Shown here: one piece after another, positions 2,899-12,892 of the stretch
Position numbering within the stretch: the stretch's first letter is position 1
Layout of the letters: each line of letters starts with the position of its first letter
Origin: Leptospirales bacterium
Lineage (GTDB): Bacteria; Spirochaetota; Leptospiria; Leptospirales; Leptonemataceae
Direction: 5' to 3'
Length of the DNA: 64,000 nt
Assembly: GCA_019694655.1 (NCBI GenBank)
Contig: JAIBBN010000001.1
Location: forward strand, 186,001-250,000
Position numbers and translations under genes: made by a program
Notes under the pieces: model-generated
Told to the model about the DNA's origin: nothing
Seen by the model: only the letters and a program-made list of their open reading frames with translations
The model's database searches: none

Positions 2899-3059
2899 TT
2901 CTATTTCAGCGGAGGCGCGCCGCCATCCTCTGAAATAGGGCAACGCGCCTTCATTTGGTGACAGTGCGTCAGGCGCCTGAGCGCGATTGCCGGCTATGTC
3001 GCATGCAGTGCGGCGCATCAGACTTGACCCCCGGCAAATTGCGCTGAATTGTGAATCTT

Positions 3060-3743
3060 ATGGCTGTATCCGCCGAGACATCTCGCGCTGCTGTGTTCTA
3101 CGACATCGACAACACGCTGGTCGATTCGCGCGTAATCTATGCCTACCTCTACTTTGCCTTGCGTATGCCGCGCATCAGCGAACGCGTTGCCCGGCTGACC
3201 CGGACGGCGCTGCTTTCGCCAGTCTACGCCGCGGCCGGCGCACTGAATCGCGCCCTTTTTTACCGCCTGTTCTATGCCAGCTACAAAGGCATGCCGCTGG
3301 AGCGTCTGCGTTTGATGGGGAGCGATGCTGTGCAAAAGGCGATTCTGCCTCATATCTACGAGGAAGCGCGTCGAAGAATTGCAAAGGCGCAAAGCATGGG
3401 TCTGGTGCAGGTCCTGGTTTCCGCCTCGCCGGATTTTATTGTGCAGCCGCTGGCGGAGAGTCTCGGCATTGAACACTCTATTTGCAATGAGCTGGAGTAT
3501 GCTAACGGATTTGCAACCGGCAAGATCGTTCCGCCGCTGCTCTTGGGCGAGGACAAGGCCCGAGCTGTGGCTCGCTTTGCGCGCGAACAGCGCATCGACT
3601 TGCTGAGTTCTTACGCCTTTGCTGATTCGCTTCAAGATCGGCAAATGCTGGAGACCGTAGGGTTTCCCAGTGCAGTGAATGCTCAGCCTGGTCTGGCCGA
3701 GGCGGCCCGCGAACGCGGTTGGCCGCTGCTGCAGTTTATTTGA
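3060..3743 (+). CDS. HAD-IB (SerB-like) phosphatase
   Basis: A 227-residue haloacid-dehalogenase hydrolase. Motif I is YDIDNTLVDS with nucleophile Asp15 and acid/base Asp17; motif II is LVSASPDF; the lysine is in LLGEDKARAVA; motif IV is AFADSLQD. The all-helical cap between motifs I and II fits subfamily IB, which includes phosphoserine phosphatase and phosphatases fused to PlsC acyltransferases. It is the first gene of the ether-lipid operon, so a phospholipid intermediate such as an alkyl-glycerol or lysophosphatidate phosphate is a plausible substrate; this is inference. A GTG at 3051 in the same frame is an alternative start. Confidence 0.75.
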   Translation: MAVSAETSRAAVFYDIDNTLVDSRVIYAYLYFALRMPRISERVARLTRTALLSPVYAAAGALNRALFYRLFYASYKGMPLERLRLMGSDAVQKAILPHIYEEARRRIAKAQSMGLVQVLVSASPDFIVQPLAESLGIEHSICNELEYANGFATGKIVPPLLLGEDKARAVARFAREQRIDLLSSYAFADSLQDRQMLETVGFPSAVNAQPGLAEAARERGWPLLQFI

Positions 3744-3760
3744 AGAATATCGGATTTGTT

Positions 3761-5350
3761 GTGAGCAGACAGCCAGCATATTCCGCGTTAGCGGGCGTCG
3801 TCGGCGAGGACGATCGGGAGGTCGCGATCAGCGATCCGGGCGCCGCCTCGCGTTGCCTGCTCTCCGGCGAGCGACTGATGGATCTGCAACTGCCGGCTGC
3901 GGTGCGCATGATCTATCCGCGCGAACCGATGCGCGAGCTGCGCGATTTGCCGGGCGCGCTGCGCTTCGCCTGCCTTCATCCCGAGCAAAGCGCGCCGTTG
4001 CCGCAGCTGTTGCGACCCGGTATGAAGCTGACGATTGCCGTGGAAGACGCCGGCGCTGTTCTGCCGGCGCTGCCGCGCCCTGATTGGAGGCAAAGCGCAC
4101 TGGAGTGTGTGCTGGATTTTGCTGATCACGCCGCGGTGGAAGACATTCATATTGTATTCGCAACTGCTTGCAATCGTCGCATGAACGCCAAAGAAATGCG
4201 CCGACTGTGCGGAGCGGCGATTTATGAGCGCTTTGCGCCAGACCGGCTCTACAGTCACGACTGCCTGGACGCGTCTCTTCTAGAAGCGCTGCCGACGGAT
4301 GGTCCGGGACCTCAGCTTGAGGTATCGCGTCGGGCCGCCAGCAGCGATCTGATCATTTATCTTTCGCTGCATGCCGGCGCCCAAAATGACCTGCGCAAGT
4401 CCTGGCTCTTTGGCCTGTGTTCGATGCGTTCCGCAGCGCTGCTCCTGGAGATGGATCGCCAGGGCGTCGATCCGCTGGCCAGTAGCGCCGGGCCGCGCAT
4501 TTTTCAAATCGAGGCGGCGATCAACAGTCGCGCCTTTGGCGGGGGCCTGGACTTCTTGCAAAGAAACGAAGATCGCTGGAGTGCGATCGATCGGCGCAAG
4601 AGCCATGCCCTGCAGCGCAGTCTGTCGCGTTTGCGCTCGGACTATACGGGACGCTTGCTGGCGCGCATGCGCGGTGCGCGCCAGTGTGCAGCTGTCTTTG
4701 CCGGCGATCCGATCAGGGTGCGGCGTCGTATTCTGCGCACCAACCAAAAGCAGTACTGCATCCGGACGGCGGGGCCCGCTGATATTCTGATCAGCGCTGC
4801 GCCGCCAATCAGCGCCTTTCATCTGCAGGGAGCCATGAATCCGCTGCTGCTGCACTACGCAGCGGCCGCGATCTGTTCCAATTTTTATGGCGATCAGCCG
4901 CTGCTTCACCCGGGCGGCGATCTGCTGCTGTGCTACAGCGGACGACTGGACTTCGACGGCTTCGCATTTCCTGGATATCAGGAATTCTTTGAAGAGGCCT
5001 TGCCGGAATTGCTGCTGAGCGGGGAGACGGCGCTGCAGACTCCAAAGAGATTGCAGTACTCCAGCGAGGCGCAACAGGCCTACCGTACGGAGGGCGCCTT
5101 GCCGCCCGGGCACGCCATGCTGCTCTGGATCATGGGCAGCCGCGGCCGCCGACTGAACGCGCGCGTAACGCTGGTAGGCGACGCGCCGCCGGAAATCGCC
5201 GACGCCCTGGGCTGGCAAAGCGCAGCCACTGTTGATCAGGCTCTGGCCCAGCTTCAGGCCAACTCCTTTGAGCATTCGATCGTCTATCTGCCACAGCCGT
5301 CGCTGTGTTGCCCGCAAGTTTTGCCGGACATTGCAGCCGAGAAATCTTGA
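3761..5350 (+). CDS. LarA-like (DUF2088 family) protein of the ether-lipid operon
   Basis: About 529 residues. Residues from about 85 to 230 resemble the LarA N-terminal domain: a strand GMKLTIAVEDAG, then ECVLDFADH, VEDIHIVFATACNRR (where LarA has a conserved ATG.HR), and RLYSHDCLD with the HD pair. LarA is a nickel-pincer lactate racemase, and the wider family includes other 2-hydroxyacid racemases and epimerases. Several family residues look changed here, so the activity may be altered or lost. It sits 17 bases from both neighbours in spacing and fits no step of the pathway. Starts are uncertain: GTG 3761 is used, TTG 3740 and 3719 are alternatives that overlap the HAD gene. Confidence 0.5.
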   Translation: MSRQPAYSALAGVVGEDDREVAISDPGAASRCLLSGERLMDLQLPAAVRMIYPREPMRELRDLPGALRFACLHPEQSAPLPQLLRPGMKLTIAVEDAGAVLPALPRPDWRQSALECVLDFADHAAVEDIHIVFATACNRRMNAKEMRRLCGAAIYERFAPDRLYSHDCLDASLLEALPTDGPGPQLEVSRRAASSDLIIYLSLHAGAQNDLRKSWLFGLCSMRSAALLLEMDRQGVDPLASSAGPRIFQIEAAINSRAFGGGLDFLQRNEDRWSAIDRRKSHALQRSLSRLRSDYTGRLLARMRGARQCAAVFAGDPIRVRRRILRTNQKQYCIRTAGPADILISAAPPISAFHLQGAMNPLLLHYAAAAICSNFYGDQPLLHPGGDLLLCYSGRLDFDGFAFPGYQEFFEEALPELLLSGETALQTPKRLQYSSEAQQAYRTEGALPPGHAMLLWIMGSRGRRLNARVTLVGDAPPEIADALGWQSAATVDQALAQLQANSFEHSIVYLPQPSLCCPQVLPDIAAEKS

Positions 5351-5367
5351 ATACCAGGAACAAAACC

Positions 5368-8300
5368 ATGGCTACAGCTCGAAAAAAACGCACAACCGAA
5401 GGCGAGGGGCCGGCGCTTGACTCGATGAGTCTCGATGCACTGCGTTCCTATGTTGCGGAACGCGAGCGGCGCGAAAGCGGCGCGGCGACGCTCGATGGCG
5501 GGCCGCATTTTTCCGGCAGCGAAGCGGCAAAGTCGCTGCGCGGTGCGGCGATGTCTGCGGCGGCCGGCGCATTCAGCGTTCGCCAAACCCTCGACGGCAA
5601 GAAGATCATGATGATCGGCGGCACCGGATTTCTGGGCCGCGTCATGCTCTATATGCTCCTCAAGTATTCGCCAGTCATGGAGCGCATCTATGTGCTGATC
5701 CGTCCTACCCATGGGCGCACCGGACAGGATCGGCTGGAAAAGGAAATCCTGGAGTCTCCGGTGTTTACCACCGTTGAGGGCGATCGCGAATATTTTCGTC
5801 GCCTGGCCGCCGAGAAGATCACAGTGGTGGAGGGCGATGCGGCGCGCACAGGCATGAATTTGAAGCCGGAGGTGCGAGAGCTGCTGCTGGCTGAGGTCGA
5901 TGTTGTGCTCAACACTGCCGGCAATGTCGAATTCAATCCGCCGCTCGATCTTTCGCTCAACGCCAATGCCATCGCCACCCGCGAGGTGCTCGATTTTGTA
6001 GAGGCGACGCAGTCGCGGCGCTACGTCCACATTTCCACCTGCTACGTCGCCGACCGCCAGCGCTATCCCGATCGCGCGCCGGAAGTTGTGGTCAGCGATC
6101 GAGTGGTCAACGCCTCGGGAAACGAAATCGTTATTGATGCGGAGCGGGAACTGGCGGAGGCGGCGCGCGTTGCTGCGCGCCTGAAAGAAAATTTCGAGCG
6201 TCCGGAAAAGATGGACGAGTTTCGCGCTCAGGCCTGGCAAGAATTGAAGCGTTTCGGTCGCGAGGATGTGAGCGATCGACTGGCGGAAAAGACGGCCAAG
6301 AATCTGCGCACCATGGCGCTGCGCGAAGAACTGATCCGCGCCGGCCGCGAGCGCGCCGAGCGCTTGAATCGCCCCAACGTCTACACCTATACCAAGACCC
6401 TGGCAGAGCTGATTGTCAAGGCGCGCGAGGATCGGATTCGTTATACCATCGTGCGCCCGTCGATTGTGGAGACGGCAATCAAGTATCCCTTTGCCGGATG
6501 GAATGAGGGCATTCAGGGTTCTGCGCCTTTGATGTATCTCATATACAAAGGCCACCGGATGTTGCCCAGCATCTCCACCGCGCCGGGCGAACGACAGGAA
6601 GCGCGCCTGGATATCATTCAGGTCGATCTGGTGGCTGCCGGCACGATTCTGGCGATGGCTGCTCTGCTTGCTGATGAGCACAAGCCAGTCTATCAATTGG
6701 CCGCCGGCGGCATCGATACGCCGGTCACGCCCAATCGACTGCTCAACGTGCTGCAGGTAAAACTGCGCGCCATGAATGACCCGGCCTTGCCGCGCTACCA
6801 GCGTTTCATGCACCGTCATCTGGAAACCTATCCGGTGACCAAAAAGCAGTTTCAGAAGTTCTCCAGCCCGCGCATGCTCAAGATTCTCAGCCGCGCCCGC
6901 GACAGTCTGGAGCGTCTTGAGGCGCGCAAGTTGCCCGGTCTGGCGCACGAAATGGTGCAACGCGTGCAGGGCAATGTGGAGCGCTACTACCAGCTGAGCC
7001 ACGTCAAGAATCGCATCTTTGGCGAGTTCATGCCCTTCATGAATCACGGCTTTCCGATTTTCGAAAATCAGAACTGCGTCGACCTCTGGCGACGTCTGCC
7101 TCCCGAAGAGAGCGAGATTTATTTTTTCAACCCTTACCAGATCGATTTCATCGACTACCTGGCGAACTACCACATGGACTCGGTCTTTAAGTGGATCTTT
7201 CCGGTTCTGGACAAACGTTTCAAGTCCATTGATCAGATCGGTCGAAAGAGTCCGGACAAGAGCGAGGGCGCCAACAGCATCGCCTCGCTGCGCGCGGTGT
7301 TTGCCAGCAGCGATATGGATTTCAGCGATCGCGTCCATCTGCTGCGACGAGCTGCAGCCCAGCGTCTGAAAACGGCGCGCGAAAAGCGCAAGGCGGCGCG
7401 CGCTGCGCGTCAGCAGGAAGAGGAACTGGTTTCCTCGGCCTGGATCCGGCAGCATGTGCGACACTTTACCGACGGCGTTGCTGTAAATCAGTACTCAGAA
7501 ATGAGCCCCGAGGCTCGCGATCGTTTCGCCGCCCATGTGTCTCTGATTGGCGGCATTGATGTCGATGGCAAGGGGCTGCTGGACATGGGCGCCCCGGCCA
7601 AGCTGGAGCGTCTGCTGGACCGTCGTCAGGAGGAGTTGGCCGAAAGCAGCGAAGGCGGTCTGTTCTCGCTGCCGGAGGACGGCGTCGAGATTCCGGATTT
7701 CATCCGCGAACCTACCGCGGAGATGCTCTACCGTCTGCAGATGTGGTTCTATCGACGAGTGGTGCGAGCGCGAGTCGCCGGCCGCGACAACATCCCGCTG
7801 AACAATAACAACGTGATCCTGGTGGCCAACCATGCCAGTCACCTGGACTACGGCCTGGTCTGGTACAGCCTGGGCGACTATGCCCGCGATATGGGCATCC
7901 TGGCGGCGCGCGATTACTTCTTTGATCGCTTCTTGAAGTCGACCTTCTTTGGCAATTTCCTGAATCTCATTCCAGTGGAGCGCGCCGACAATTCCAGCTA
8001 CGGCAAGGCGCTGAAACACGGATTGGAATTCTTGCAAAAGGGCGGACCGCTGCTGATCTTTCCGGAGGGCACGCGCTCGCCGGACGGCAAGATGCGCACC
8101 TTCCGTCATGGCCTGGGCTATCTGGTGCAGCATGCCCGCGCCGACGTATTGCCATTGCGGCTCTACAATACGCATGTAGCGCTCCCCAAGGGAAAGACCC
8201 TTGTGCGCCGCGCCGACGTGCGCGTACAGATCGGTAAACTTGTTTCTTACGAAGAACTTGAGGAACAAACACGCGGCTTTTCGCCGACCAAAACCTACGC

Positions 8301-8391
8301 CCATATTGCCCGCAGCCTGGAAGAAGCGGTGCGCTCCATTCACGGCAAGGCGCAAAGCGACGATGACATCGGATCGCAGGGAGAATCCTGA
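5368..8391 (+). CDS. Fatty acyl-CoA reductase fused to a PlsC-type acyltransferase
   Basis: A 1007-residue bifunctional protein. Residues about 76-470 are a reductase of the FAR type: Rossmann motif GGTGFLG, a STCYVAD strand and the catalytic YTYTK (Y-x3-K) near 339, with a helical, charged stretch of about 100 residues between them. Residues about 800-980 are a glycerolipid acyltransferase: NHASHLD (H-x4-D) near 820, IPVERAD, and FPEGTRSPDGK near 897. The first half would make fatty alcohol from acyl-CoA; the second would acylate glycerone phosphate or a lysophospholipid. AGGAA precedes the ATG by 8 bases. The stop overlaps the next ATG (TGATG), so the two proteins are translationally coupled. 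The same frame is open from 5305, but that has no ribosome site. Confidence 0.88.
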   Translation: MATARKKRTTEGEGPALDSMSLDALRSYVAERERRESGAATLDGGPHFSGSEAAKSLRGAAMSAAAGAFSVRQTLDGKKIMMIGGTGFLGRVMLYMLLKYSPVMERIYVLIRPTHGRTGQDRLEKEILESPVFTTVEGDREYFRRLAAEKITVVEGDAARTGMNLKPEVRELLLAEVDVVLNTAGNVEFNPPLDLSLNANAIATREVLDFVEATQSRRYVHISTCYVADRQRYPDRAPEVVVSDRVVNASGNEIVIDAERELAEAARVAARLKENFERPEKMDEFRAQAWQELKRFGREDVSDRLAEKTAKNLRTMALREELIRAGRERAERLNRPNVYTYTKTLAELIVKAREDRIRYTIVRPSIVETAIKYPFAGWNEGIQGSAPLMYLIYKGHRMLPSISTAPGERQEARLDIIQVDLVAAGTILAMAALLADEHKPVYQLAAGGIDTPVTPNRLLNVLQVKLRAMNDPALPRYQRFMHRHLETYPVTKKQFQKFSSPRMLKILSRARDSLERLEARKLPGLAHEMVQRVQGNVERYYQLSHVKNRIFGEFMPFMNHGFPIFENQNCVDLWRRLPPEESEIYFFNPYQIDFIDYLANYHMDSVFKWIFPVLDKRFKSIDQIGRKSPDKSEGANSIASLRAVFASSDMDFSDRVHLLRRAAAQRLKTAREKRKAARAARQQEEELVSSAWIRQHVRHFTDGVAVNQYSEMSPEARDRFAAHVSLIGGIDVDGKGLLDMGAPAKLERLLDRRQEELAESSEGGLFSLPEDGVEIPDFIREPTAEMLYRLQMWFYRRVVRARVAGRDNIPLNNNNVILVANHASHLDYGLVWYSLGDYARDMGILAARDYFFDRFLKSTFFGNFLNLIPVERADNSSYGKALKHGLEFLQKGGPLLIFPEGTRSPDGKMRTFRHGLGYLVQHARADVLPLRLYNTHVALPKGKTLVRRADVRVQIGKLVSYEELEEQTRGFSPTKTYAHIARSLEEAVRSIHGKAQSDDDIGSQGES

Positions 8392-11300
8392 TGAGCGAAA
8401 ACAAACTCAAGAAACTCCAGCGCTGGCGGCGCAATACGCGTCTGGCTGGCGCCGCCGTGGCCGGCCTGCGAGCGCTGGCCAGACGCTACCGCGGCAAAGA
8501 AGCGACCGGCAGCGCTACATTGCCGGCCGGCGCGACCCTGCGCGATGCGCGCTTCAGTCCCGAACCAATGACCTACGATCCGGCCGATCGCGAGAGTCTC
8601 GATGTGTGGGGCTTCAAGGACACGCGTTTTATCATCAATGACCGCGGCCACGTCGAGCTTACCGGCCGCCGCTATGCGCTGTCCGGCAGCGAGCTGACCC
8701 GACTGCTGCCCTGGATTGAGGATGTCCTTGGCCTCAAAGTTGACGCGCGCGATACCAGGCCCTCGCACTATGGCCAGGGAATTCCGGCGCCGCGGCGCAA
8801 TGCGCATTTCGAAGAGGATTTGCGCAAGTTCCTGAGCGAAGACCAGATTACAGCGGACGAGCGAATCCGACAGCGGCACGGACACGGGCACACGCAAGAA
8901 GAGATGTACCTGATCAAGAACGGCTCGCTGCCGCGCGTGCCAGATCGGGTCGTCTATCCGGCGGATGAGTCGCAGGTTGCGAGTCTGGTGGGAGCGGCCA
9001 TTCGGCGCAATGTTTGCTTGATTCCTTACGGCGGCGGTACCAACGTCACGGAAGCGTTGCGTTGCCCTGCGGATGAAGAGCGTCTGATTTGTTCTATTGA
9101 TATGAGTCGGATGAACCGCGTACTCTGGATCGATCCGATCAATCATACGGCCTGTATCCAGGCTGGCGCCGTTGGCCGGCACATCATGACCCATCTTGCG
9201 CGCTATGGCTACACCATGGGCCATGAGCCGGATAGCATCGAGTTCAGCACCCTTGGAGGATGGATTGCCACCCATGCCAGCGGGATGAAAAAGAACAAGT
9301 ATGGAAACATAGAAGATCTAATCGTAGATATGAATGTGGTCGGCCCGCTGGGAATCGTGCGTCGCTTTTCGGCAGGGCCGCGAGAATCCACCGGCATCGA
9401 CCCCAGACTCTGGATGTTTGGATCGGAGGGCAATTTGGGCGTTGTCACCCAGGCGGTGGTAAAGCTCTTTCCGCTGCCGGAAGTAAAGCGCTACGGTTCA
9501 GTGATCTTCCCCAATTTCGAAAGCGGCGTGCAATTCATGTACGAGTTATCTCGCCAGAGTTCCTGGCCAGCCTCGGCGCGCCTGGTAGATAATTTGCAGT
9601 TTCAATTGAGCATGGCGCTCAAGCCCGCCGATCCAAACGAAAGCGCCTGGCACAGGCGCAAGAGTCGCCTGCAGAAGCTCTTCGTAACACAGATCAAGGG
9701 TTTTGATCCGGATCAAATGACAGCCTGCACCCTGGTCTTTGAGGGTCGGGCGGAAGAGGTGCAAGCTCAGGAGCGACAGGTTTACGGCATCGCCCGCCGC
9801 TATGGGGGATTACGAGGCGGCGGAGAGAATGGCGAGCGCGGCTATCAACTAACCTTTGGCATCGCTTATATCCGCGACTTCATGATGAACCACTACTTGA
9901 TGGCGGAGTCCTTTGAGACCTCGATGCCCTGGACTCGCGTTCATGACGTAGTGAACAATGTCAAGCGCCGCGTCGCTGAGGAGCACGCCCGCCGCAATTT
10001 GCCTGGCAAGCCCTTTGTTACCGCGCGATTGACGCAGATCTATGAGACCGGCGCAGTCATATACTTTTACTTTGCGTTTTACGCCAAGGATGTGCCCAAC
10101 CCACACCATGTCTTCAATGAAATTGAGCATGCGGCCCGCGAGGAGATCTTGAAATCGGGCGGTTCGTTGTCGCACCACCACGGAGTCGGCAAGCTGCGTA
10201 CCAGTTTTATGCCACAAATTCTGTCGCCGGCAGGACTGCAGTGGAAGGAGCGCATGAAGGAGGCGCTGGATCCGCAAAATATCTTTGGCGTGCGCAACCA
10301 GTACGGGGCAATTGCTGCGCCGGCAGGGGCGCCCTCGGCAGCGGGGATGGGTTTCTTTCGACGGCTGCGCATGCGTCTGGCCTCGTTCTTTGCACGCGTC
10401 GCAAACTGGCTGGCCGGCGGCGCTCTGCCGGGATCTCAGACCAAGGTTCAGGCTGCGCCATCGCCGGCCTTCATGGGACAGGCATCAACATCCGCAGCGC
10501 CCTCGTTGTTGGTGGAAACTCCAGTAGCCGAGGTGCTTCCGGCGCAACGTGGTCGGCCGTCGCGCGTCGAGCTGCAAGCTCAGAGTTCGATGGAAAACCA
10601 TCGCGCCGCGGAACTTCTGGCGCCCGCGCGTCGCGCAGCAGAGACCACGGCCTCGGCGCGCGGCTACTTCAGCGGGAAGACGGTGCTGGTAACCGGCGCC
10701 AGCTCCGGGATTGGACGCGAGCTGGCGCTGGAGCTGGCTCGTCGCGGGGCCAACGTAGTCGCCATGGCTCGAACCGAAGAGCGACTACGCTCGCTACAGG
10801 CTATCACCGGCCAATGGATGGTGCGCGGCGATGTCAGCGTGGAAGCGGATTGTCGCTTTGCTATTGATGCAGCCCTGAAGCAGTATGGCCGGCTGGATGC
10901 AGTAATCCACAATGCCGGCGTTAGTATGCGCGGCCTGGCTGAAGAGACCGATCTGAGCGTTGTCGATCGGCTGCTGGCTACTAACTTTTATCCAATCATA
11001 TATATGTACCAACATGCGATTGACGCCCTGCGTCGCAGTCGCGGCCACTTTGTAGGCGTATCCAGCATGATGGGTCACTTTTCTACGCAGTTGCGCTCCG
11101 GCTATTGCGCCAGCAAGCACGCCTTGCAGGGATATCTCGATAGCGTCCGTCTGGAAAACGCTGCTCATGGAGTGCACGTCATGTCGGTGGCGCCTGGCTT
11201 TGTCAGTACGGAGATTACGCGCCGCGCACTGAATTCACAGGGCGAGTCGCACGACAAAGAGAGCGACAATACGGCGGCCGGACTGCGCCCGGATTTTGTG

Positions 11301-11441
11301 GCGCGGCGCATTTTGCGCGGCATTGAGCTGCGCCGTCGCGATGTCTATCCCTCGCGCGTCAAAGAGATCATTGGACTGGGTCTCAGTCGCGTGGCCCCGG
11401 CGGTGCTGGACCGCATCATGTTGAAATCGTCAGTTACCTGA
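8391..11441 (+). CDS. Alkylglycerone-phosphate synthase fused to a DHRS7-like SDR reductase
   Basis: A 1016-residue fusion. Residues 1-636 match animal AGPS from memory over nearly the whole length: WGFKDTRFIINDRGHVELTG, the FAD/PCMH motif IPYGGGTNVTEAL, GHEPDSIEFSTLGGWIATHA, then GMKKNKYGNIEDL, the active-site histidines in SLSHHHGVGKLR, and DPQNIFGVRN. AGPS swaps the acyl chain of acyl-DHAP for a fatty alcohol, forming the ether bond. A linker of about 120 residues, rich in Ala/Pro, precedes an SDR domain (762-1016): TGASSGIG, NAG, SSMMG, YCASK and PGFVSTEI. Its YCASKHALQGYLDS resembles DHRS7/DHRS7B, the acyl/alkyl-DHAP reductase of animals. No peroxisomal-type signal is needed or seen. Confidence 0.92.
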   Translation: MSENKLKKLQRWRRNTRLAGAAVAGLRALARRYRGKEATGSATLPAGATLRDARFSPEPMTYDPADRESLDVWGFKDTRFIINDRGHVELTGRRYALSGSELTRLLPWIEDVLGLKVDARDTRPSHYGQGIPAPRRNAHFEEDLRKFLSEDQITADERIRQRHGHGHTQEEMYLIKNGSLPRVPDRVVYPADESQVASLVGAAIRRNVCLIPYGGGTNVTEALRCPADEERLICSIDMSRMNRVLWIDPINHTACIQAGAVGRHIMTHLARYGYTMGHEPDSIEFSTLGGWIATHASGMKKNKYGNIEDLIVDMNVVGPLGIVRRFSAGPRESTGIDPRLWMFGSEGNLGVVTQAVVKLFPLPEVKRYGSVIFPNFESGVQFMYELSRQSSWPASARLVDNLQFQLSMALKPADPNESAWHRRKSRLQKLFVTQIKGFDPDQMTACTLVFEGRAEEVQAQERQVYGIARRYGGLRGGGENGERGYQLTFGIAYIRDFMMNHYLMAESFETSMPWTRVHDVVNNVKRRVAEEHARRNLPGKPFVTARLTQIYETGAVIYFYFAFYAKDVPNPHHVFNEIEHAAREEILKSGGSLSHHHGVGKLRTSFMPQILSPAGLQWKERMKEALDPQNIFGVRNQYGAIAAPAGAPSAAGMGFFRRLRMRLASFFARVANWLAGGALPGSQTKVQAAPSPAFMGQASTSAAPSLLVETPVAEVLPAQRGRPSRVELQAQSSMENHRAAELLAPARRAAETTASARGYFSGKTVLVTGASSGIGRELALELARRGANVVAMARTEERLRSLQAITGQWMVRGDVSVEADCRFAIDAALKQYGRLDAVIHNAGVSMRGLAEETDLSVVDRLLATNFYPIIYMYQHAIDALRRSRGHFVGVSSMMGHFSTQLRSGYCASKHALQGYLDSVRLENAAHGVHVMSVAPGFVSTEITRRALNSQGESHDKESDNTAAGLRPDFVARRILRGIELRRRDVYPSRVKEIIGLGLSRVAPAVLDRIMLKSSVT

Positions 11442-11459: not shown

Positions 11460-12740
11460 TCAGGCGCCCGGAGCATCAAACATGGTGACATTGCCGCCGG
11501 CGCCCTTGGCGGCATAGAGCGCCTGATCGGCGCCGTCCACCAGGCCCCGCGCGTCCTCATGCCCAGGGTAGAAAGCCGCGCCACAGCTGAAGCTGCACTG
11601 AAATTGCGCTGCGCCATAGCGATGGACTATCCGGGCAAAGGATTGCTGCACGCGTTCCAGCGCCTGGCGCGCCAGATTGCGATCGACGCCCGGCAAGATA
11701 ATGCCGAATTCTTCGCCGCCGTGTCGGCCCACCACATCGCTGGATCGCAACTGCAACTTCAAGGCGCGAGCCAGATTCTTGATTACCTGATCGCCTGCCG
11801 AATGACCGTAAGTGTCGTTGACGCGCTTGAATTTATCGAGGTCCGTCATGGCGAAGCACAGGCTGCCGCCCTCGCGAGCGGCGCGGGCCAGCTCAAAATC
11901 CAGGCGCTGTTGCAGGGCGGTATGATTGAGTAGCCCGGTCAGGCTGTCGCGCACCATCAGTTGTCGGACGGAGTGCGAACGCATTACCCTGGCGGTAACG
12001 GAGGAAACCAGATGAGCGGGTTGAATCGGTTGCAGGAGAACGTCATCGCCGCCGCGGCCCATAGCGCTCAATTGGCGTTCGCGATTCTCCTCCCCTGAAA
12101 GAAAAACGATCGGCAGCGACACGTACTGCTGATGCTGACGGATGACCTGGGCCAATTCCCCGCCCAGACACTCATCATAGTACATGTTCAAAAGCAGAAG
12201 TTCCGGATCGAATTCGGCGATGGCTTGCAGCGCTTCCGCCGGGCTGGCCACGGCCTGGACCTGCATGCCGGCTGCGGAGAGAATCGCGGCGTATTTTGTG
12301 CGCGCAGCGGCGTCGTTCTCTACAATCAAGATGCGATACTGCGGCTGGTCTTCGCTGGTGGCCAATCGATCCAGGGTTGCCACCAGTTCATTGAAATCTG
12401 GAGGAGAGGGCAGAAAGGCCACTCCGCCAAAGCGTGCGGCCATCAGACGCAACTGCAACGAATCCTCTTCTGCAAGGAAAACCACCGGAAAGGCTCGCGA
12501 GGATTCAGTTTGTACTTCGGACATGACCATGCCAATGTCCTCGCTCTGGCTTCCTACGGAGGCTACAATGGCCATCGGCGGTCGGACGCGTACTGCATGG
12601 CGCACGGCGTAGAGGTCCGGATAACCGGCTGAAACATAGCCATAGTAGGAAAGTTCGCTGGCGATGGCCTGACGCAGCGCCGGATCCGACTCCACTACGT
12701 AGATAATCCGCGGAGCATCGCTCTCTTCACTTTTTCGCAT
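11460..12740 (-). CDS. Diguanylate cyclase with two degenerate receiver domains (PleD-like layout)
   Basis: A 426-residue protein: receiver 1 (about 10-125), receiver 2 (about 130-250) and a GGDEF domain (about 265-426). The cyclase is intact: DLDKFKRVNDTYGHSAGD, and the GGEEF signature with an RxxD inhibitory site (RSSD) five residues before it, so feedback inhibition by c-di-GMP is expected. Both receivers look unable to be phosphorylated: the second has Asn (LLLLNMYYDE) where the phospho-Asp should be, and the first has no Asp after the third strand (MAIVASVGS). They may act as dimerisation modules. The ATG at 12740 is chosen because the frame upstream is proline/alanine-rich and unlike a receiver; no clear ribosome site is seen. 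Confidence 0.88.
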   Translation of the reverse strand: MRKSEESDAPRIIYVVESDPALRQAIASELSYYGYVSAGYPDLYAVRHAVRVRPPMAIVASVGSQSEDIGMVMSEVQTESSRAFPVVFLAEEDSLQLRLMAARFGGVAFLPSPPDFNELVATLDRLATSEDQPQYRILIVENDAAARTKYAAILSAAGMQVQAVASPAEALQAIAEFDPELLLLNMYYDECLGGELAQVIRQHQQYVSLPIVFLSGEENRERQLSAMGRGGDDVLLQPIQPAHLVSSVTARVMRSHSVRQLMVRDSLTGLLNHTALQQRLDFELARAAREGGSLCFAMTDLDKFKRVNDTYGHSAGDQVIKNLARALKLQLRSSDVVGRHGGEEFGIILPGVDRNLARQALERVQQSFARIVHRYGAAQFQCSFSCGAAFYPGHEDARGLVDGADQALYAAKGAGGNVTMFDAPGA

Positions 12741-12892
12741 GGCTGGCAACGCCGGTAGAGGAGGGAGCGCGGCCCGCCGACAGACTGTCAGCGATGGGCG
12801 TCTATCTTCTCCGGCAGCCAAGCGCGCTGCAATGCAGGGAGTCTGCAAAGAAATAATTTGACTCTCTCCGTCGCAAAGCGAATGTCCACGCC

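Follow-up and report, generated by a model that had tools for sequence, protein, structure and literature searches.

Myxobacteria are the main bacterial model of the animal-type route to ether lipids, with alkylglycerone-phosphate synthase (AGPS) and CarF, and in them most of the early steps still await proof. In Myxococcus xanthus, AGPS is encoded in the MXAN_1676-1674 operon together with a fusion of a FAR1-like fatty acyl-CoA reductase (FAR) with a GNPAT-like acyltransferase, and with an NAD-dependent epimerase/dehydratase (PMC9131029). Ether lipids fall slightly when MXAN_1676 is disrupted, and deletion of MXAN_1676-1674 matters little, ElbD playing the dominant part (PMC9131029). Work on Dictyostelium and Tetrahymena has characterised fusions of FAR with an acyltransferase, termed FARAT (PMC7375469, PMC13256971, PMC3143110), and AGPS homologues are widespread among bacterial metagenome-assembled genomes (MAGs) (PMC11868695). 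Leptospira interrogans lacks FAR1 but has an annotated AGPS as well as CarF, and its plasmalogen capacity was left open (PMC9131029). We analyzed a 64,000-nucleotide stretch of DNA from a Leptospirales bacterium (the window; G000:C1:186001-250000), whose genome comprises 3.9 Mb in 33 contigs and is 96% complete. An operon in the window encodes two fusion proteins, a FAR joined to a PlsC-type acyltransferase (FAR-PlsC) and an AGPS joined to a short-chain dehydrogenase/reductase (AGPS-SDR), and it probably serves the biosynthesis of alkyl-ether phospholipids. Below, G codes denote genomes and L codes loci (L062, G015; L063, G003; L140, M. xanthus).

The layout is a variant of the known bacterial ether-lipid operon, and its novelty lies in the AGPS-SDR fusion and in the subtype of the FAR-acyltransferase fusion. 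The M. xanthus operon (L140), which is implicated in ether lipids, likewise combines AGPS (56% identical to that of the window), a FAR-acyltransferase fusion and an NAD(P) oxidoreductase. However, its AGPS is unfused and comes first, its acyltransferase is of the GNPAT/GPAT type (GPAT, glycerol-3-phosphate acyltransferase), and its FAR half is ~26% identical to that of the window. Furthermore, its third gene encodes an extended SDR (Epimerase/3Beta_HSD), whereas the SDR of the window is classical, and there is no HAD or LarA-like gene. We did not classify the window with MXAN_1676-1674, since the gene order, the acyltransferase class and the SDR class all differ.

In the protist FARAT, FAR also lies N-terminal to the acyltransferase and acts ahead of AGPS. 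However, its acyltransferase is a DHAP-acylating GPAT relative (DHAP, dihydroxyacetone phosphate), whereas that of the window is of the PlsC/LPAAT type (LPAAT, lysophosphatidic acid acyltransferase), and the protist AGPS and SDR are separate. FAR-PlsC was not assigned as a FARAT: the domain order is alike, but the acyltransferase is not GPAT-related. The animal set (FAR1, GNPAT, AGPS and DHRS7B/PexRAP, peroxisomal) shares the FAR and SDR folds with the window, and animal AGPS is close to the AGPS half; in contrast, the animal enzymes are separate proteins and GNPAT is not of the PlsC/LPAAT type. The myxobacterial Elb operon (ElbB, HAD; ElbD, FAR-ACS-ACP-AT; ElbE) is an ether-lipid operon that also has a HAD-superfamily gene, a FAR and an acyltransferase, but it lacks AGPS, and the ligase and carrier domains of ElbD are absent in the window. 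FAR-PlsC was not taken as an ElbD, since Pfam finds no AMP-binding or ACP domain.

The AGPS half

Judged by sequence, the protein encoded from position 8391 (the 8391 protein) has a genuine alkylglycerone-phosphate synthase as its N-terminal half. A search of solved structures returned guinea-pig AGPS first (Table 1), followed by Dictyostelium AGPS (2e-84), and the next family was glycolate oxidase (2e-25). The bit scores were 587 for AGPS, 92 for glycolate oxidase and 80 for D-lactate dehydrogenase; placement among the lactate or glycolate oxidases, which the earlier note had named as fatal to its AGPS assignment, was not observed. The AGPS half is 48% identical to guinea-pig AGPS (271/568). 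Guinea-pig T309, R419, R515, Y578 and H615-H617, which we take from the AGPS structures to be active-site residues, correspond to T287, R397, R495, Y558 and H595-597 in the window, all kept. The two AGPS motifs quoted by the earlier note were located at residues 277-291 (GHEPDSIEFSTLGGW) and 592-601 (SLSHHHGVGK).

Pfam detected FAD_binding_4 (residues 184-326, 1e-31), FAD-oxidase_C (362-632, 2e-37) and adh_short (763-946, 3e-45) in the 8391 protein. The first two make up a fold common to this protein and to GlcD-type enzymes, and NCBIfam glcD gave 143 bits (cut-off 568). Nevertheless, that the protein is a GlcD/D-lactate-type 2-hydroxyacid dehydrogenase fused to an unrelated SDR is extremely improbable, given the excess of the AGPS score over that of glycolate oxidase and the retention of the HHH motif, Y558, R495 and R397.

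In a tree of 82 AGPS sequences, the window grouped with two Leptospirales/Spirochaetia MAGs of the same family (SH-aLRT 99), its closest AGPS genes, in agreement with the spirochaete origin given earlier. The three were nested in a bacterial AGPS group, mostly of Myxococcota and Acidobacteriota. This grouping indicates that the window gene belongs to the known bacterial AGPS clade, with no sign of animal origin; guinea-pig AGPS formed a long unplaced branch, and no claim of animal-bacterial transfer is drawn. One record labelled Comamonas sp. KCTC 72670 (L115) carries AGPS and a FAR-acyltransferase almost identical to those of Myxococcus, for which mislabelling or contamination of the assembly, or else a recent transfer, is the likely cause.

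The AGPS-SDR fusion

AGPS and SDR are adjacent but unfused in the two MAGs (G015 and G003), where the two genes, read in different frames, share 4 bp; the AGPS proteins are 66-67% and the SDRs 55-57% identical to those of the window. Both genomes also encode CarF and FAR-PlsC, the latter on a separate contig. Since the fusion was seen in one genome only, and since one indel could join genes that overlap in this manner, the fused frame might be an assembly or sequencing artefact covering two separate genes. We consider this very unlikely. The linker is much longer than the overlap would yield, frame 0 scores best by codon log-odds across the whole linker and has no stop, and no start codon is present at the usual start of the unfused SDR homologues. 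The short predicted helix before the linker is similar to the tail with which the unfused AGPS of G015 and G003 ends. We therefore take the AGPS-SDR fusion as real, though seen in a single genome.

We surveyed 80 named bacterial AGPS loci for neighbours within three genes on the same strand. No AGPS-SDR fusion was found in the 80 loci, and an unfused SDR gene lies directly downstream of AGPS in 20 of them; thus, the fusion looks new. An SDR was near AGPS in 27 loci, a stand-alone acyltransferase in 12, a FAR-acyltransferase fusion in 32, and a FAR without a detected acyltransferase in 15 (some cut by contig ends). The claim that the layout was unknown therefore stands for the AGPS-SDR fusion and falls for operons of AGPS with a FAR-acyltransferase, which are known (MXAN_1676-1674, PMC9131029) and common.

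The SDR half carries TGASSGIG (768-775), HNAG (840-843), the S892 region and YCASK (905-909), and agrees with the classical SDR signature. We compared it with 39 other SDRs, from the 80 AGPS loci and two more. The 12 best matches were two AGPS-adjacent SDRs of the same family (55-57%), one further same-family SDR (54%) and nine AGPS-adjacent SDRs of other phyla (30-36%). The nine come from Latescibacterota, Poribacteria, Marinimicrobia and related genomes, each encoded immediately 3' of AGPS, and SDRs elsewhere in the AGPS loci scored below the AGPS-adjacent ones. Since its kin adjoin AGPS and it is itself fused to AGPS, these results support a role of the SDR half as alkyl-DHAP reductase. The DHRS7-like kinship named in the earlier note is putative. 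Alkyl-DHAP reductase is hard to assign by sequence because the SDR families are huge, as noted for Dictyostelium (PMC13256971); a naturally occurring fusion is evidence for this enzyme being the SDR encoded beside bacterial AGPS genes.

Clusters in Latescibacterota and Poribacteria (L124, L131, L132, L125 and L126) have an SDR of like kind (32-35%) directly after AGPS, and FAR upstream in three. They differ from the window in that AGPS and SDR are unfused, FAR lacks the acyltransferase, and a large protein stands between FAR and AGPS. This protein of ~650-800 aa has no Pfam match (L124:6593-8983, L131:6824-8845, L132:6847-8805) and is possibly a divergent DHAP acyltransferase.

The FAR-PlsC fusion and its acyltransferase class

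The FAR assignment of the earlier note was supported by the NAD_binding_4 match with its GxxGFLG and YxxxK motifs. Y339 and K343 are near-invariant across 18 homologues, and the best solved relative of the FAR half is the fatty acyl-CoA reductase 7eoz (2e-37).

As for the ACYLTRANSFERASE class of the window half, a profile of seven window-type halves matched PlsC only (5kym, 1.4e-19) and no GPAT. In contrast, a profile of eight acyltransferase halves from AGPS-adjacent FAR fusions matched GPAT (9vuq, 4.6e-29; human GPAT1, 8e4y, 2.8e-23), and the two profiles showed only a remote relation (hhalign, 8e-7). Because of these matches, the window acyltransferase is classed by its profile as PlsC/LPAAT-type and not as GNPAT. 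The earlier note had presented it as the counterpart of GNPAT, which does not hold; it is the other bacterial AGPS partners that are of the GPAT/GNPAT type. FAR-LPAAT is a new subtype of the FAR-acyltransferase fusion.

AlphaFold models were confident for the AGPS and FAR Rossmann parts and poor for the SDR and PlsC parts, because homologues of these were absent from the alignments. The models were not used for claims.

Proposed pathway

In the proposed pathway, the FAR domain would convert long-chain acyl-CoA to a fatty alcohol. 1-Acyl-DHAP would come from the PlsC domain or from a GpsA/PlsB-type fusion encoded elsewhere in the genome, both of which are candidates. The FAD-bound AGPS domain would replace the acyl chain on acyl-DHAP by the fatty alcohol to give 1-alkyl-DHAP, and the fused SDR would reduce the keto group to give 1-alkyl-glycerol-3-phosphate (1-alkyl-G3P). 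The simplest and most likely role of the LPAAT-type PlsC domain would be acylation of 1-alkyl-G3P at sn-2, and the resulting alkyl-acyl phosphatidic acid would enter normal phospholipid synthesis. Given O2, the CarF/PEDS1 homologue could desaturate the alkyl chain to form a plasmalogen. The sequences support the identities of the AGPS, FAR, PlsC-type and SDR domains, the operon, the fusions, the retained catalytic residues and the presence of CarF; the activities, the order of the steps, any channelling within the fusion proteins and the sn-2 role of PlsC are what we infer. The pathway is probably right for FAR, AGPS and SDR, and tentative for the first acylation. The earlier note described the route as oxygen-independent in appearance. 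This agrees with the alkyl part, as the operon encodes no O2-requiring enzyme, but the genome also has CarF/PEDS1, of an O2-dependent desaturase family.

Several observations weigh against an ether-lipid operon of this kind. A source of acyl-DHAP is missing from the scheme. In whole genomes of the same family, full-length FAR-PlsC homologues (43-60%) were found in G011, G008, G015, G018 and G009, and one split over two contig ends in G003. G011, G018, G008 and G009, four of the seven FAR-PlsC genomes, have no animal-like AGPS, and in G015 and G003 FAR-PlsC lies on a different contig from AGPS; thus, FAR-PlsC is not strictly tied to the window-type AGPS. The genomes in which the tie is loose do carry an AGPS-like paralogue (26-29%). 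Moreover, no ether lipids were detected in Pontiella with ElbD homologues (PMC11868695), so that homologues are no guarantee.

Since FAR-PlsC elsewhere in the family sits behind a HAD gene and never adjoins AGPS, the gene order indicates that the window operon arose by local joining of a HAD-LarA-FAR-PlsC module with an AGPS-SDR module. The family-wide HAD-(LarA)-FAR-PlsC cluster, apart from AGPS in every other genome seen, and the four genomes without window-type AGPS would suit FAR-PlsC serving some other lipid, such as free fatty alcohol or wax ester, with its adjacency to AGPS recent and incidental and AGPS-SDR alone making ether lipids from an alcohol formed elsewhere. We regard this as improbable. 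The two genes are coupled by TGATG in the window, and FAR is the standard AGPS partner across phyla. CarF is present in 6/7 FAR-PlsC genomes and in 5/15 other family members, a weak association (one-sided hypergeometric p ~0.03, ignoring kinship). WS/DGAT (PF03007) was unmatched in 23 genomes, which is a weak negative not counted as absence, since the control genomes were also unmatched.

The source of acyl-DHAP would be settled if the PlsC domain were itself a DHAP acyltransferase. FAR-PlsC would then be a functional analogue of the protist FARAT built from another acyltransferase family, and the operon would be self-contained from acyl-CoA and DHAP to alkyl-G3P. The order of FAR and acyltransferase is the same as in FARAT, whose acyltransferase acylates DHAP (PMC7375469), and no other gene of the operon could provide acyl-DHAP. 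However, the domain matches PlsC and no GPAT, whereas the FARAT-like bacterial partners match GPAT, and sn-2 acylation is also on the pathway. We hold this alternative to be somewhat unlikely. A wider form of it, in which FAR-PlsC gives both fatty alcohol and acyl-DHAP, AGPS-SDR forms and reduces the ether, and CarF finishes plasmalogens, would be self-contained on two polypeptides; we think it rather unlikely. If true, Leptospirales would make plasmalogens de novo.

Returning to the pathway with sn-2 acylation by PlsC, the four catalytic domains on two soluble-looking proteins, with CarF in the same spirochaete genome, make stepwise reconstitution practical. Genomes like that of the window supply the FAR missing in L. 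interrogans, which bears on whether Leptospirales make plasmalogens themselves.

Other ether-lipid genes in the genome

The genome encodes a CarF/PEDS1 homologue (Lipid_desat, 1.7e-43; G000:C1:681126-681623), which makes plasmalogen synthesis plausible. That FAR, AGPS and CarF occur together in Leptospirales is also new.

A glycerol-3-phosphate dehydrogenase (GpsA) fused to a PlsB/GNPAT-type acyltransferase (805 aa; L153:6403-8820, (-) strand, G000:C2 ~286.4-288.8 kb) was found with the profile of the AGPS-partner acyltransferase domains. This protein could act on both DHAP and G3P, and is a candidate supplier of acyl-G3P or acyl-DHAP. Open frames of similar size are present in many genomes of the family. 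PlsY is also encoded in the genome. GPAT_C (PF19277) had no match in the genome, and was set aside as a test for GNPAT, since the FAR-acyltransferase of M. xanthus, although GNPAT-like, was also unmatched.

A second AGPS-like gene (L058:7202-9603, (-) strand, G000:C11) encodes a protein ~30% identical to the AGPS half, with the HHH motif, Y, both R and T kept. It is followed by an SDR gene with a 4-bp overlap and is divergent from a YegS/DAGK lipid kinase gene. Because relatives of this protein are present throughout the class, the ether-lipid capacity may not hinge on the window operon alone.

A DUF3419 protein (L148:2-1045, G000:C3), a member of the family of BtaA, which is a betaine-lipid enzyme, has its gene within a few kb of those for a CDP-alcohol phosphatidyltransferase and a PlsC.

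The gene run and its neighbours

The two long fusion reading frames and their TGATG overlap, as reported earlier, were found on the + strand, and both genes lie in one run of four + strand genes (3060-11441). The run is flanked by opposite-strand genes for MarR (2430-2864, -) and GGDEF (11460-12848, -) proteins. Its first two genes, HAD and LarA-like, fall within the interval of the earlier note (3051-11441), where they were unnamed. A promoter scan gave no signal above chance.

Table 1. Features of the gene run (positions in the window; residues in the encoded protein)
Feature	Position	Strand	Evidence or remark
HAD-IB phosphatase, 227 aa, first of run	3060..3743	+	PF12710 1.1e-34; TIGR01490 138.5 bits, cut-off 98.3
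LarA-like protein	3761..5350	+	Lar_N 1.5e-16; NF052592 321 bits, below cut-off 740
FAR-PlsC fusion, 1007 aa	5368..8391	+	fatty acyl-CoA reductase and PlsC/LPAAT-type acyltransferase
FAR Rossmann domain, residues 84-424, GGTGFLG 84-90, Y339xxxK343	5617..6639	+	PF07993 4.4e-47
FAR C-terminal (Sterile) domain, residues 521-602, weak	6928..7173	+	PF03015 7.6e-8, 32.8 bits, cut-off 35.4
PlsC/LPAAT-type acyltransferase, residues 801-931, HASHLD 822-827, FPEGTRS 898-904	7768..8160	+	PF01553 1e-21
TGATG overlap, TGA 8389-8391 / ATG 8391-8393	8389..8393	+	sequence; joins FAR-PlsC to AGPS-SDR
AGPS-SDR fusion, 1016 aa	8391..11441	+	domain matches and frame continuity
AGPS domain, residues 64-636	8580..10298	+	guinea-pig AGPS 4bby, E 5.5e-175
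Linker, ~120 residues, Ala/Pro-rich, predicted disordered	10299..10667	+	follows short predicted helix
Classical SDR domain, residues 760-1013	10668..11429	+	adh_short 3.1e-45; NF004825/PRK06181 222.9 bits, cut-off 215

A HAD gene lies 5' of FAR-PlsC in G011, G015, G018 and G003, and its product is 44-59% identical to that of the window. Outside the family, a HAD-IB phosphatase gene was also found directly 5' of a FAR gene in Acidobacteria (L102:6019-8315, (-) strand, 35%). This recurrent adjacency hints at a functional HAD-FAR pair.

The LarA-like gene is kept as a neighbour in G011, G018 and G008. Its start in the window is uncertain: the frame opens at TTG 3719, with a GTG at 3761. In an alignment of homologues (loci L050, L052 and L040), the window protein departs from conserved positions, with ATAFHRRMT changed to ATACNRRMN and MNGGSK to AQNDLRK; the altered positions are likely catalytic. 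LarC had no match in the genome of the window, whereas G011 and G018, with the undegraded LarA-like form, do have LarC. The window copy thus has the look of a nickel-pincer enzyme in the course of cofactor loss.

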